Source: Roseovarius sp. W115 (GTDB taxonomy: Bacteria; Pseudomonadota; Alphaproteobacteria; Rhodobacterales; Rhodobacteraceae). From it: 64,000 bases of DNA. The stretch's first letter is position 1, and every line of letters starts with the position of its first letter. A model generated the notes under the pieces. That model was not told the origin of the DNA. It ran no database searches and saw only the letters and a list, made by a program, of their open reading frames with translations. A program made the position numbers and the translations under genes. The stretch lies in assembly GCF_032842945.2 (NCBI RefSeq), contig NZ_CP146606.1, forward strand, positions 1,306,501 through 1,370,500. The letters run 5' to 3'. Positions 57,490-63,384 of the stretch are shown here, one piece after another.

Positions 57490-58476
57490 ATGCAATCGGC
57501 ACAGGCACAAAGCAATTCAGGCGTGGGCATCGCTTTCATTCTTGTTGGTGTGGTAGCGATCTCTGTGAACGACATGCTGATCAAGTTTCTCTCGGGCGAC
57601 TATCCGCTGCATGAGATCGTTTTTGCTCGCTCTGCCATTGGCATTGCCTTCAGCCTTGTTCTTGTCCAACTCGAAGGCGGCTGGCGGATTCTGAGGGCTG
57701 ATCACCCTGCCCTGCACCTGTTGCGCTGCATCATGATTGTCATCGCTAACATGACGTTTTTCTCTGCTCTTGCCGTTCTGCCCCTGGCCGAAGCCACCGC
57801 GCTTTTCTTTGTCAGCCCGCTGATCATCACCTTGCTCAGTGTTCCGTTACTGGGTGAAAAGGTCGGCCCCCTACGGCTGGGTGCTGTGCTGGTTGGCTTT
57901 GTCGGCGTCATTGTCATGACCCGACCCTGGGAGGCGCAGGATGGGCGCGATATCTCCATGGTGATTTACCTTTTGCCCATCCTTGCGGCCGTGACCTATT
58001 CCATCAATCAGGTTCTGACCCGCATGCTAGGCGTCACCGCCAAAGCGTCGGCTCTGACGGTCTATATTCAATCGACCTTTATTGTCGTCAGTCTCGGGTT
58101 CTGGACATTTGCCGGGGATGGCCGGTTTGCCGAAGGTTTGACAAATCAAAGCCTGATCTTCCTCCTGCGCGCCTGGATCTGGCCTCAGGGCAGCGACATT
58201 TGGCTCTTCCTCACTTTGGGGTTCAACTCCGCCATCCTGGGCTATGCGCTGGCGCAGGCCTACCGCTCCGCCGACGCGGCGGTTGTGGCACCCTTTGAAT
58301 ACGCCATTCTGCCACTGGCCATCTTCTGGGGCTGGCTCATCTGGGCCGACCTACCGGATGCAGTGACGTTAGTGGGCATTGCACTTATCCTCGGGGCAGG
58401 GTTGTTTGTGTTCCTGCGTGAATACCAAAAGAAACGCCGTGTTTTGCGCGGCAAGCGTGTCCATGGACGGTGGTGA
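57490..58476 (+). CDS. EamA-type DMT-superfamily transporter
   Basis: 328 residues with ten membrane helices in two EamA repeats. It has a basic C-terminal tail after the last helix. The substrate is unknown. The stop lies 10 bases before the chosen start of the next gene. Confidence 0.9.
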   Translation: MQSAQAQSNSGVGIAFILVGVVAISVNDMLIKFLSGDYPLHEIVFARSAIGIAFSLVLVQLEGGWRILRADHPALHLLRCIMIVIANMTFFSALAVLPLAEATALFFVSPLIITLLSVPLLGEKVGPLRLGAVLVGFVGVIVMTRPWEAQDGRDISMVIYLLPILAAVTYSINQVLTRMLGVTAKASALTVYIQSTFIVVSLGFWTFAGDGRFAEGLTNQSLIFLLRAWIWPQGSDIWLFLTLGFNSAILGYALAQAYRSADAAVVAPFEYAILPLAIFWGWLIWADLPDAVTLVGIALILGAGLFVFLREYQKKRRVLRGKRVHGRW

Positions 58477-58486
58477 GACAAAGCGA

Positions 58487-59578
58487 ATGCTTTCAGGGAT
58501 CAAGGTCGTAGAATTTGAAGGTCTGGGGCCCGGTCCTTTTGCCGCCATGATGCTGGCCGACCTCGGGGCCGACGTGACCGTAATCCAGCGCCCCGGCCCC
58601 GCCAATCCAACCATGGGTGAGCACAATATGCTGGACCGGGGAAAGCGCGCGGTTGTGCTCGACCTGAAATCACCCAAAGGTTTTGCGGCGGCCAATGCTT
58701 TGGTGAACGACGCCGGCGCCCTGATCGAAGGGCTGCGCCCCGGTGTGATGGAACGGCTTGGCCTGGGGCCAGAGGCGTTCACCACCACAAATCCAAAGCT
58801 CGTCTATGGCCGCATGACCGGCTGGGGTCAGGACGGCCCCCGCGCCCACACGGCCGGGCATGACTATAACTACATCGCCACCTCAGGCGCGCTTTGGTAC
58901 GCGTCGACGCCCGGTGACGTGCCACTGACGCCGCCCACCATCGTGGGCGACATTGGCGGAGGCGCGCTGTATCTCGTGGCTGGTATCCTTGCCGGCATCC
59001 TCAACGCCACACGTACCGGCCAAGGCACCGTGGTGGATGCGGCCATCGTCGATGGCTCGGCTCATATGATGGCACTTTTCATGGCTATGGCGGGGGGTGG
59101 CAACGTCTCCAAGACCCGTGGTCGCAGCCTGCTCGACGGCCCGCCATGGGGCCGGGTCTATCCCTGCGCCGATGGAGCCTATCTTTCGGTCCAATGTCTT
59201 GAACCACAGTTCTACGCCATCTTTCTGGACCAGATGGGCCTGCGGGATGAGCCTGACTTCGCAGACCAATATGACCGGGCGCAATGGCCAAACCAAACAG
59301 CCCGCCTTGCTGAGATTTTCGCAGGCCAACCCGTCTCGCACTGGGCCGCGTTGTTCGCTGGGACAGATGCCTGCGTCGCGCCGGTTCTGGACCCATGGTC
59401 TGCCATGGACGAACCCCATATGGCCACCCGCGCAGTGTGGTCCGAGGGACAAGGGATTTTACAACCCGCACCCGCACCTCGCTTTGGCGGTATCGCTCCT
59501 CAACCTGCATCAATCCCCGAACGCGGCGCAGACACAGAAACCGTGCTGCAAGACCTCAAGACCCGCGGGCTACTCTAA
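58487..59578 (+). CDS. Family III CoA-transferase (alpha-methylacyl-CoA racemase-like)
   Basis: 363 residues from the ATG at 58487 (MLSGIKVVEFEGLGPGPF), the usual racemase-type start; an in-frame ATG at 58463 would overlap the EamA gene. The CaiB/BaiF pattern includes DLKSPKG, the catalytic Asp in AGHDYNYIA and IGGGALYLVAGI. Exact substrate not known. It ends 9 bases inside the convergent regulator gene. Confidence 0.9.
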   Translation: MLSGIKVVEFEGLGPGPFAAMMLADLGADVTVIQRPGPANPTMGEHNMLDRGKRAVVLDLKSPKGFAAANALVNDAGALIEGLRPGVMERLGLGPEAFTTTNPKLVYGRMTGWGQDGPRAHTAGHDYNYIATSGALWYASTPGDVPLTPPTIVGDIGGGALYLVAGILAGILNATRTGQGTVVDAAIVDGSAHMMALFMAMAGGGNVSKTRGRSLLDGPPWGRVYPCADGAYLSVQCLEPQFYAIFLDQMGLRDEPDFADQYDRAQWPNQTARLAEIFAGQPVSHWAALFAGTDACVAPVLDPWSAMDEPHMATRAVWSEGQGILQPAPAPRFGGIAPQPASIPERGADTETVLQDLKTRGLL

Positions 59579-60277: not shown

Positions 60278-60296
60278 ACGCACACCCTAGCATGAT

Positions 60297-60318
60297 TGCT
60301 GACAGTATGGTGTCAGCA
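60297..60318. promoter_or_regulatory. Perfect inverted repeat between WYL gene and YqfO-like operon
   Basis: TGCTGACA (60297-60304), six bases, TGTCAGCA (60311-60318). The arms lie 20 bases before the regulator start and about 40 before the first operon gene. Likely operator of the WYL regulator. Confidence 0.7.
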
Positions 60319-60358
60319 GGGTTTTGATATTCTGATTCAAAGGAGAAGGAGCCCTGAT

Positions 60359-60811
60359 ATGACCCACGAACTGGATGACCACGACATGACCCCGGCCGTA
60401 TTGGAGCGCGAATGGGTTCTCACGATCGACACACCGAATGGCGGATTAGAACCGGTGCTGCTGGCTTTGGGCGAGCATCTGCCACTAAAACAGGGACCAT
60501 ACGACAACTGTATGTATGTCCGCGAAGGTGGGTTTCAGCGCCTGCGCGCGCTCGAAGGCTCTCATGCAGGTGACGAAGGCACCATTCAGCAGGTGCCCGC
60601 CAGCCAGATCATTACTTCCATACCGCCCGACCCGGAACTGCTTTCCAAAGCGTTCGACGTGATCTTCGCTATCCACGTAAACGAAGAACCCACAATTCGC
60701 GTAACCGAAGAATGGGGCAGCCGCTCCAAACTCCTTGACGACAAAAACAACCCCAACCGCTACTGGAACCGACCTGACGCAAAGGAACTGCATGGAAAGG
60801 CTGTGGGATGA
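60359..60811 (+). CDS. YqfO/CutA-like protein, paralogue 1
   Basis: 150 residues from the ATG at 60359 (AAGGAGAAGG upstream). The body (about 18-117) resembles the ferredoxin-like insert domain of NIF3/YqfO: QGPYDNCMYV, then FAIHVNEEPTIRV, matching the HPYEEP-type motif of that family. It ends in a basic tail with NPNRYWN at 131-137, shared by the two paralogues below. I infer a small oligomeric binding protein; ligand unknown. It overlaps the next gene by 4 bases. Confidence 0.78.
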   Translation: MTHELDDHDMTPAVLEREWVLTIDTPNGGLEPVLLALGEHLPLKQGPYDNCMYVREGGFQRLRALEGSHAGDEGTIQQVPASQIITSIPPDPELLSKAFDVIFAIHVNEEPTIRVTEEWGSRSKLLDDKNNPNRYWNRPDAKELHGKAVG

Positions 60812-61272
60812 CACTCGCAACATATCAGGCGCAGTCCGGCACACTCGTGCCGGTCTGGACCCTTGAGATACAAACTCTGCCAGAGGACACGGACCGCATT
60901 CTGGATGAAGTCCTGAAAGTGCACTCCTTGGGATATGGCCGTTACCATCGCAACGCATCGATTTCTGCCGTGGGCTGCGAGACGGCTCAGCCACAGGCGA
61001 ACTCGACCACCACAACCCACAAGGCGGGCTATCAGACAGGTGTCACCGAAACCTATCCTATGGTCGAACTGAAGATTTCGATCGAGCGAGATGCAGACGT
61101 GCTTGCCACGGTAATGGACGCCATCCTTTACGCGCACCACTATGAGCAACCCGTGGTTTTTGTGCGCGAAGACTGGGCCAGCCGGGCCAACTACGACCTG
61201 AACAACAAAAATCCCAACCGTTGGTGGAACAACGGACGTGGCCTTCCAAATACCTTGGAGACCACGACATGA
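60808..61272 (+). CDS. YqfO/CutA-like protein, paralogue 2
   Basis: 154 residues; same fold pattern, with LGYGRYHRNA near 41-50, YAHHYEQPVVFV near 108-119 and the tail NPNRWWN at 135-141. A Thr/Ser-rich loop (about 65-80) differs from paralogue 1. It overlaps neighbours by 4 bases on both sides. Confidence 0.78.
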   Translation: MTLATYQAQSGTLVPVWTLEIQTLPEDTDRILDEVLKVHSLGYGRYHRNASISAVGCETAQPQANSTTTTHKAGYQTGVTETYPMVELKISIERDADVLATVMDAILYAHHYEQPVVFVREDWASRANYDLNNKNPNRWWNNGRGLPNTLETTT

Positions 61273-62090
61273 CCTCCTTTCGCGCCCTGCACCAAACGAA
61301 CACACCATTTGTTATTCCCAACCCATGGGACTTGGGTTCGACACGTATCCTTGCAGCGATGGGATTTCCCGCCCTGGCCACCACCAGCGCCGGCATGGCC
61401 TTTTCCAAAGGTCAGATCGAAGGAACCACGCCCCCCGATCAAGTGCTTGATCATTGCCGCGAGATCGTGTCGGCCACATCTCTGCCCGTCAACGCCGATC
61501 TTGAACGCGGCTTCGGTGACAGCCCCGAAAGCGTCGCCGACACGATACGCGCCGCGGCGGCAACGGGCCTGGCAGGGGGCTCAATTGAGGATCACACCGG
61601 CGACCGCGCTTCCCCAATTTTTGACAAAAACCTCGCTATTGAGCGTATCGCCGCGGCGGTCGAGGCTGCTCAAGCCTTGCCATCAGATTTCGTTCTGACC
61701 GCGAGGTGCGAAAGCCTTTTGTGGGGTGAGACAAATCTTGACCCGGTGATTGAGCGTCTACAAGCCTTCGAAGCCGCAGGCGCTGATGTTCTCTACGCTC
61801 CTGGTTTGCGTGACCTCGATGCGATCCGAACAGTCTGCGCATCTGTGTCAAAGCCCGTAAACGTGGTGATGGGCATGGCGGGACGAACCTTTCCGCTGGA
61901 ACAGTTGGCCGATGCTGGCGTCACCCGCGTTAGCGTGGGGTCGGCGCTCTTCCGGGTTGCCTATGGCGCCTTCATCGACGCCGCACGGCAAGTTTTCGAC
62001 GATGGCACCTTCGACAAAACTGCCAAAGGCATCGGCTTTGCCGAGCTAGAAGCCTTCTTTCAACCCCCGACCAAGGACACCCCGCCATGA
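61269..62090 (+). CDS. Isocitrate lyase/PEP mutase-superfamily enzyme
   Basis: 273 residues from the ATG at 61269. TIM-barrel pattern of the superfamily: NPWDLGSTRIL, ATTSAGMAFSKG, VNADLERGFGDSP, GGSIEDHTGD, TARCESLLWG. The usual K-[KR]-C-G-H catalytic loop of isocitrate lyase is not seen, so it is not ICL itself. C-C bond or C-P chemistry on a 2-oxo acid is the family expectation; the substrate is not known. Confidence 0.86.
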   Translation: MTSFRALHQTNTPFVIPNPWDLGSTRILAAMGFPALATTSAGMAFSKGQIEGTTPPDQVLDHCREIVSATSLPVNADLERGFGDSPESVADTIRAAAATGLAGGSIEDHTGDRASPIFDKNLAIERIAAAVEAAQALPSDFVLTARCESLLWGETNLDPVIERLQAFEAAGADVLYAPGLRDLDAIRTVCASVSKPVNVVMGMAGRTFPLEQLADAGVTRVSVGSALFRVAYGAFIDAARQVFDDGTFDKTAKGIGFAELEAFFQPPTKDTPP

Positions 62091-62269
62091 TCAAATATTA
62101 CTACCCCGACGGCAGCCACTGTTACCGTGCACTGCACACAACCCATGCCGTCTATCAATCCGAGGATGGCAAGCTCATTGCTCGCACGATGCGGCCTGAC
62201 AATTCAGAACTCTACGAGTTTGAAATCACCGGGTTCGAGCTTTTGGAAACGGGGGTGCGCTATGGGTGA
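62087..62269 (+). CDS. 60-residue protein of the YqfO-like operon
   Basis: 60 residues, rich in Tyr and Glu, with an apparent beta-rich pattern and no membrane segment. It overlaps the genes on both sides (4 and 8 bases). I recognise no family; coupling to neighbours is the reason to call it real. Confidence 0.62.
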   Translation: MIKYYYPDGSHCYRALHTTHAVYQSEDGKLIARTMRPDNSELYEFEITGFELLETGVRYG

Positions 62270-62708
62270 GACATCCATCATGCAGGACGGATTTGACACG
62301 AGGCCCATCGAAATGCTGCCCATGTGGCAGATTGCCTTTCTCGCGCCTGATGAAGATGTGGATCGCATCTTTGATGCCGTGGCAGATGTCGCACCGCTGA
62401 CCTATGGCGCAACAGACCGCAACGGGTATCGCATGATGGGTGGGGTAGAATATTATCGCCCTACTGACGACGCCCCCACCGGATCAGACGGCCCGCGCCA
62501 ACGCCCCGGCGTGGATCAGATGCGTATTTTCATTCCCCGCGATATGGACCTTTTGAACGCAGTGATCGAAGCAATCTACGACGTACATTCCTACTACGAA
62601 CCCCCCATCACTATGACTGAAGTCCTGCGCAGTCAGACCAAAGGTCTGGATGACAGCCAGAACCCCCACCGCTGGTGGAACAAGGACGGCGATTGGAAAT
62701 CGTCCTGA
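62262..62708 (+). CDS. YqfO/CutA-like protein, paralogue 3
   Basis: 148 residues from the ATG at 62262, overlapping the 60-residue gene by 8 bases. LTYGATDRNGY near 46-56, DVHSYYEPPITM near 107-118 and the tail NPHRWWN at 134-140 link it to paralogues 1 and 2. Confidence 0.78.
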   Translation: MGETSIMQDGFDTRPIEMLPMWQIAFLAPDEDVDRIFDAVADVAPLTYGATDRNGYRMMGGVEYYRPTDDAPTGSDGPRQRPGVDQMRIFIPRDMDLLNAVIEAIYDVHSYYEPPITMTEVLRSQTKGLDDSQNPHRWWNKDGDWKSS

Positions 62709-62742
62709 TGCCGAACACGCACGCACATGAAAGGCGCTGACC

Positions 62743-63384
62743 ATGCAAGACCTCTCTATCTATCTTCCCGGTATCCTGCTCGCCTATTCGGCATTCTTCG
62801 TTGGCATCGCCAGCCCGGGACCAAATATCCTGGCCATCATGGGAACCTCTATGAGCGTGGGGCGCAGATCGGGCATCGCTCTTGCCCTTGGTGTGGCTAC
62901 TGGGTCATTCACCTGGGCCGTGCTAACGGTTGTTGGCCTCTCTGCGCTGTTGGCGACCTATGCCGCCGCGCTGGTGGCAATAAAAGTCTTTGGCGGGCTT
63001 TACCTGCTCTGGCTGGCGTACAAATCCTTCAAGTCCGCCATGGCAAAGCACGACATCGAGGCACGTCAACTCGCCGGCGGGACCCGTACGCCAATGGGCT
63101 ACCTCACCCGCGGTTACGTCATTCAGATGACCAACCCCAAGGCGGCGCTCGCCTGGATTGCGATCATCTCGCTGGGCTTACAACAGGACACGCCGCTCTG
63201 GGTCGGGGCCATGATCGTCTTGGGCACATTCGCGCTCTCTGTCGTCATCCATGTGACCTACGCCATTGCCTTCTCCACGCCAGTGATGGTGCGCATCTAT
63301 GGCCGGGCACGGCGCGGCATCCAAACCGTGCTGGGATGTTTCTTCGCTTTTGCCAGTCTGAAGCTGCTGACCTCACGAACATAG
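62743..63384 (+). CDS. LysE/RhtB-family exporter
   Basis: 213 residues with six membrane helices and the family start ASPGPNILAIMGTS, then YLLWLAYKSFKSA. Amino-acid or related metabolite export is the usual role. It lies 34 bases after paralogue 3 on the same strand and could export a product of the operon. Confidence 0.9.
   Translation: MQDLSIYLPGILLAYSAFFVGIASPGPNILAIMGTSMSVGRRSGIALALGVATGSFTWAVLTVVGLSALLATYAAALVAIKVFGGLYLLWLAYKSFKSAMAKHDIEARQLAGGTRTPMGYLTRGYVIQMTNPKAALAWIAIISLGLQQDTPLWVGAMIVLGTFALSVVIHVTYAIAFSTPVMVRIYGRARRGIQTVLGCFFAFASLKLLTSRT

Follow-up and report, generated by a model that had tools for sequence, protein, structure and literature searches.

Stand-alone YqfO-like proteins (COG3323) have no agreed molecular role. 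They make up subgroups D and E of a survey of the DUF34 family, which treats them as functionally separate from NIF3 (PMC8469502). Within NIF3/DUF34 proteins, the PII-like insert of SA1388 forms trimers, for which the structural report names no ligand (PMC1779786). The closest regulatory precedent comes from Mycobacterium smegmatis, where SiwR, a divergently transcribed WYL activator, switches on two small genes of the DinB superfamily after binding to a 19-bp palindrome; a glyoxalase-like gene adjoins this locus in some genomes (PMC10693628). The locus described here brings known kinds of parts together in a new combination, the function of which is testable. No description of its protein family, C-terminal tail, operon or operator was found in the literature searched (open-licence PMC papers).

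The locus lies in the 3.7-Mb genome of the marine bacterium Roseovarius sp. W115, within a 64,000-nucleotide stretch analysed as a whole (the window). Three plus-strand genes encode YqfO-like proteins: A (60359-60811, 150 residues), B (60808-61272, 154 residues) and C (62262-62708, 148 residues). They were recognized from open reading frame translations, with alignment and tree placement for A and B and a structure model for C. Between B and C, on the same strand, lie genes for a 273-residue enzyme of the PEP-mutase/isocitrate-lyase superfamily (61269-62090; PF13714, E 6e-76, 255.6 bits against a gathering score of 31.5) and for a highly conserved 60-residue protein (62087-62269), and C is followed by a plus-strand gene for a 213-residue LysE-type exporter (62743-63384; PF01810, E 2.8e-31, 108.9 bits against a gathering score of 25.6). 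A transcriptional regulator with HTH_11 (E 2e-18) and WYL (E 1.7e-11) domains is encoded divergently on the minus strand (60283-59570), its likely start being ATG 60277 or GTG 60283. The initial annotation had placed three genes for proteins of 148-154 residues here, together with a PEP-mutase-like enzyme, a LysE exporter and a divergent WYL regulator, and the translations and Pfam matches bear this out. It had also described end-to-start overlaps of 4-8 bases; these hold from A through C (4, 4, 4 and 8 in succession), and a 34-base gap separates C from the exporter gene.

The PEP-mutase-like protein falls below the cut-offs of all NCBIfam equivalogs of its superfamily (best 78.4 bits against 354.4), and its nearest PDB structure is 4lsb, a 'lyase/mutase'. 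The 60-residue protein has 161 homologues and a confident all-beta model (pLDDT 95.5) with no clear fold match in the PDB. Its gene also adjoins unrelated genes elsewhere (L127-L135).

The kinship of A, B and C is real rather than a chance likeness, since their local alignment scores (A/B 116, A/C 177, B/C 168) lie far above the best of 1000 shuffles for each pair (53, 52 and 51). All three carry the C-terminal tail and the H-x-x-x-[EQ]-P block that had been noticed at the outset (tails NPNRYWN, NPNRWWN and NPHRWWN; blocks HVNEEP, HHYEQP and HSYYEP in A, B and C). No Pfam family matches them or the 60-residue protein above cut-offs, and for A, B and C no NCBIfam family reaches its cut-off either. 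A profile of 91 rows did reach the NIF3 insert domain (2gx8, E 4e-4; SA1388, E 4e-3), which a profile built from the three window proteins alone reached only at E 0.51. The predicted structure of C (pLDDT 92.8) has a ferredoxin-like beta-alpha-beta repeat fold, and NIF3 inserts, PII and CutA proteins top the 50 PDB matches listed for it. The model, extended to A and B by their alignment to C, places the three proteins in the PII/CutA/YqfO fold superfamily.

The likeness to YqfO and CutA that was originally proposed thus stands for the shared fold and for the NIF3 insert, the best structural and profile match. It fails at the family level for CutA, since A, B and C have no match to PF03091 (CutA1) at E 1, and the GlnB/GlnK PII profile is likewise not matched; among relatives, 15 of 91 match PF03091 weakly (best E 0.0046). 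Full-length NIF3/DUF34 proteins differ in having flanking NIF3 domains, and the NIF3 Pfam family, a dinuclear metal-site domain, has no match at E 1 in these proteins of 148-154 residues. With stand-alone YqfO-like proteins they share the fold and show an HxxxEP-type block, and they are set apart by their length and by the N-P-x-R-x-W-N tail. Two relatives of 119 residues each (L113, L114) lack this tail and are presumably COG3323 proteins. Distant fold kinship with CutA and NIF3 might by analogy point to metal homeostasis. We consider this very improbable, because the first 25 of 86 neighbour families include no metal transporter family and because the role of CutA itself in metal handling is disputed (PMC8469502).

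Seven residues (H109, P114, N134, P135, R137, W139 and N140 in C numbering) are near-invariant, being kept in 215-217 of 217-218 sequences, figures inflated by a 219-sequence set that includes the 119 best listed of 1977 relatives. In the HPYE-type block, H and P are kept in 216/218 sequences, and the full HPYEEP occurs in 13 of 114 tree rows. By analogy with PII and CutA proteins, A, B and C would each form a homotrimer, and the conserved His, Arg, Asn and Trp of block and tail may line a small-molecule site.

The family is large: of 2632 candidate sequences, 1977 proved to be relatives with an E-value of 1e-3 or better. In a 114-row tree, the window proteins fall into three well-supported branches: A into one of 10 rows (100/100), B into one of 44 (100/100) and C into one of 42 (99/99). 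A further branch of 13 rows, D (100/99), mostly has HPYEEP and a DEDNPNRFWN-like tail. The order of the deep forks is left undecided because their support is weak and long branches meet there (8 long end branches were flagged). Judged from this tree, A, B and C are old lineages and not the products of a recent local triplication. The distribution of the family is patchy: genome searches gave matches in 13 of 149 genomes of the same taxonomic family, 21 of 100 relatives, 14 of 385 genomes of the class and 17 of 398 of the phylum (six of them short and without the tail part), with misses in class and phylum being upper bounds, since 10 candidates were scored per genome.

The initial annotation had raised the possibility that A, B and C are subunits of a single hetero-oligomer, for handling or sensing a small metabolite that the PEP-mutase-like enzyme makes or breaks. 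An operon with overlapping genes for proteins of one and the same fold would fit such an assembly, and the same operon is kept in a second species (L077, genome G180), the only genome besides that of the window in which all three members were found among those searched. However, when 104 loci were examined and 7 redundant ones dropped, A, B and C occurred together in only 2 of 97 loci (the window and L077). Five loci had B and C (L015, L022, L026, L075, L079), 89 had a single member and one had a split gene (L052); these loci were found with profiles favouring A, B and C and so are not a random sample. In one genome (G584), B and C lie far apart. The genes are therefore rarely together, and members of this patchy family do not generally work as a hetero-oligomer; as an account of the window, we regard such an assembly as improbable. 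The operon is instead built modularly, as seen from the orders found in relatives (the bar marks the divergent regulator): WYL|B-small, WYL|B-C, WYL|B-small-PEPM, WYL|B-PEPM-small-C, the last with LysE, and the same with LysE and A.

Between the regulator gene and the operon lies a perfect inverted repeat, TGCTGACA-N6-TGTCAGCA with GTATGG as N6 (60297-60318, no strand), a newly observed and predicted operator with the 12-base core CTGACA-N6-TGTCAG. With at most one mismatch allowed, the core was sought around the start of the first YqfO-like gene in each of the 97 loci (200 bp upstream to 80 bp inside the gene), and the loci were grouped by best BLAST hit and motif. It is kept before C-type genes (28/31) and occurs at 11 of 42 B-type loci, being missing within one mismatch from the other 31, and at 2 of 8 A-type loci, a group that includes L052, with its split B-like gene, and L125, which the tree places in branch D. 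The D branch has none (0/12), the tail-less rows none (0/2), and the unplaced rows one (1/2). In base-shuffled control regions, even two mismatches were reached in only about 1%. With redundant loci included, 56 such sites occur in 51 of 104 loci. The repeat does not simply travel with the regulator gene, since at 16 of the 28 operator-bearing C loci no WYL gene lies closer than 1.5 kb. Where a WYL gene does lie near a YqfO-like gene (29 listed loci), most of the divergent ones carry the operator. Two of the 11 positive B-type loci (L091 in G168, L092 in G194) hold broken, decaying copies behind a perfect core and a WYL gene.

The neighbours of the YqfO-like genes were compared between adjacent slots (n=184) and slots four genes away (n=163) with the same profiles for both, after 8 redundant loci and the window had been dropped from the 104. 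WYL genes occupied 22 adjacent slots and none of the distant ones; the corresponding numbers were 10 and 3 for EamA genes, 8 and 1 for LysE genes, and 9 and 0 for genes of the small protein. ArsR-like HTH_20 regulators (Pfam) stand in place of WYL regulators beside three D-branch genes (L088, L090, L124) and one A-branch gene (L103), and HTH_20 matches were found in 8 of 109 unlabelled neighbours.

The operator also occurs well beyond the YqfO-like genes. A 16-base pattern was found in 12 of 318 class genomes and 32 of 295 family genomes (49 distinct sites), and its reversed control gave 0 in all rows of both sets. Among 42 loci with this pattern (L186-L227), 31 have a WYL gene, 18 a glyoxalase-like ORF (two of the 18 Pfam-confirmed), 4 a YqfO-like gene, 4 an EamA gene, 2 a PEP-mutase-like gene and 1 a PNPOx-like gene; a polyketide-cyclase-like and a GST-like gene are single cases. 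Within the genus, the 12-base core occurs in 25 of 60 genomes, and the reversed control once each in 2 of 60. Where no YqfO-like gene adjoins, the operator can precede a PEP-mutase-like gene alone (G200), an EamA gene alone (G188, G175) or PNPOx-like genes (G200, G157). Because it is common to many WYL regulators and a YqfO-like gene is present at only 4 of the 42 loci, the operator does not define one regulon; the variety of genes behind it argues that it serves a set of WYL regulators controlling small enzyme-like proteins and exporters. In the window, YqfO-like genes appear to fill its output slot. Ten loci have a glyoxalase-like gene behind the operator and no YqfO-like gene (L199, L205-L207, L209, L214, L215, L221, L225, L226), nine of them with a WYL gene. 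The window genome itself has two other exact cores, one inside an ORF and one (G000:C1:496666-496683, L175) 36 bp upstream of a gene for a WYL paralogue, which hints at self-regulation of that gene.

Three PII-fold proteins, an enzyme and an exporter in one operon, beside a regulator gene and a recurring DNA repeat, suggest an inducible small-molecule system. The reading that we favour, with somewhat better than even confidence and from sequence comparison, is a WYL-switched module for the handling and export of a small molecule, built like SiwR-DinB. The regulator would bind the palindrome at 60297-60318, and a signal perceived by its WYL domain would alter operon expression. Homotrimers of A, of B and of C would bind or convert a metabolite that is toxic or in surplus, the PEP-mutase-like enzyme would act on a related carboxylic acid, and LysE (elsewhere EamA) would export the product. 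The parts would be exchangeable, relatives keeping the switch and swapping the outputs. In favour of this reading are the retention of the operator core before C-type genes, the excess of WYL, EamA, LysE and small-protein genes in adjacent slots, the other genes found behind the operator, the fold, the near-invariant residues and the SiwR precedent. Weighing against it are the many B-type loci and the whole D branch without the operator, the ArsR-like regulators beside D genes, the sharing of the operator among many WYL regulators, the positions of the two other exact sites in the window genome and the two hits of the reversed core control. The likeness to the mycobacterial system is one of layout, with a divergent HTH-WYL regulator, a palindrome and two related small genes (PMC10693628); the SiwR outputs have a four-helix fold unrelated to the YqfO fold.

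More tentatively, and possible rather than probable, A, B and C together with the D branch could constitute a new enzyme family on the PII fold rather than a set of sensors. They would detoxify a reactive metabolite at an active site built from the HxxxEP histidine and the tail residues Asn, Arg, Trp and Asn. In relatives, the slot that YqfO-like proteins fill behind the WYL operator is that of glyoxalase-, GST- and polyketide-cyclase-type genes. To our knowledge, no PII-type fold that is catalytic and controlled by a WYL switch has been described, and such a case would be new.

Alternatively, A, B and C might be PII-like signal proteins that do no chemistry but respond to a metabolite by acting on the exporter, enzyme or regulator through direct contact, given that the fold is common to GlnB/GlnK and CutA and that relatives adjoin regulators in two unrelated settings, WYL and ArsR-like. 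However, the YqfO-like genes are themselves targets behind the operator, its other partners are enzymes and exporters, and many B and C genes have no recurrent partner, so this alternative seems unlikely. Still less likely, and quite doubtful in our judgement, is a module linked to genotoxic stress or defence. Sensing of single-stranded DNA and the guarding of defence islands are roles of other WYL regulators, SiwR offers a precedent (PMC10693628), and the window regulator matches PADLOC WYL models; set against this, the other six proteins have no PADLOC match at E 0.01, and the partners are metabolic enzymes and exporters.

A handling-and-export module, if true, would add metabolite handling to the roles of WYL regulators, which are best known from DNA damage and phage defence. 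A large YqfO-like branch is now tied to a predicted operator, a type of regulator and a few exporters and enzymes, which makes an orphan fold testable: once the inducer of the operator is found, the ligand should be close. On its other side, the WYL gene adjoins genes for an EamA-type transporter and a CoA-transferase-like protein (57490-59578), and these recur in relatives, for example at L015, L026, L077 and L078.
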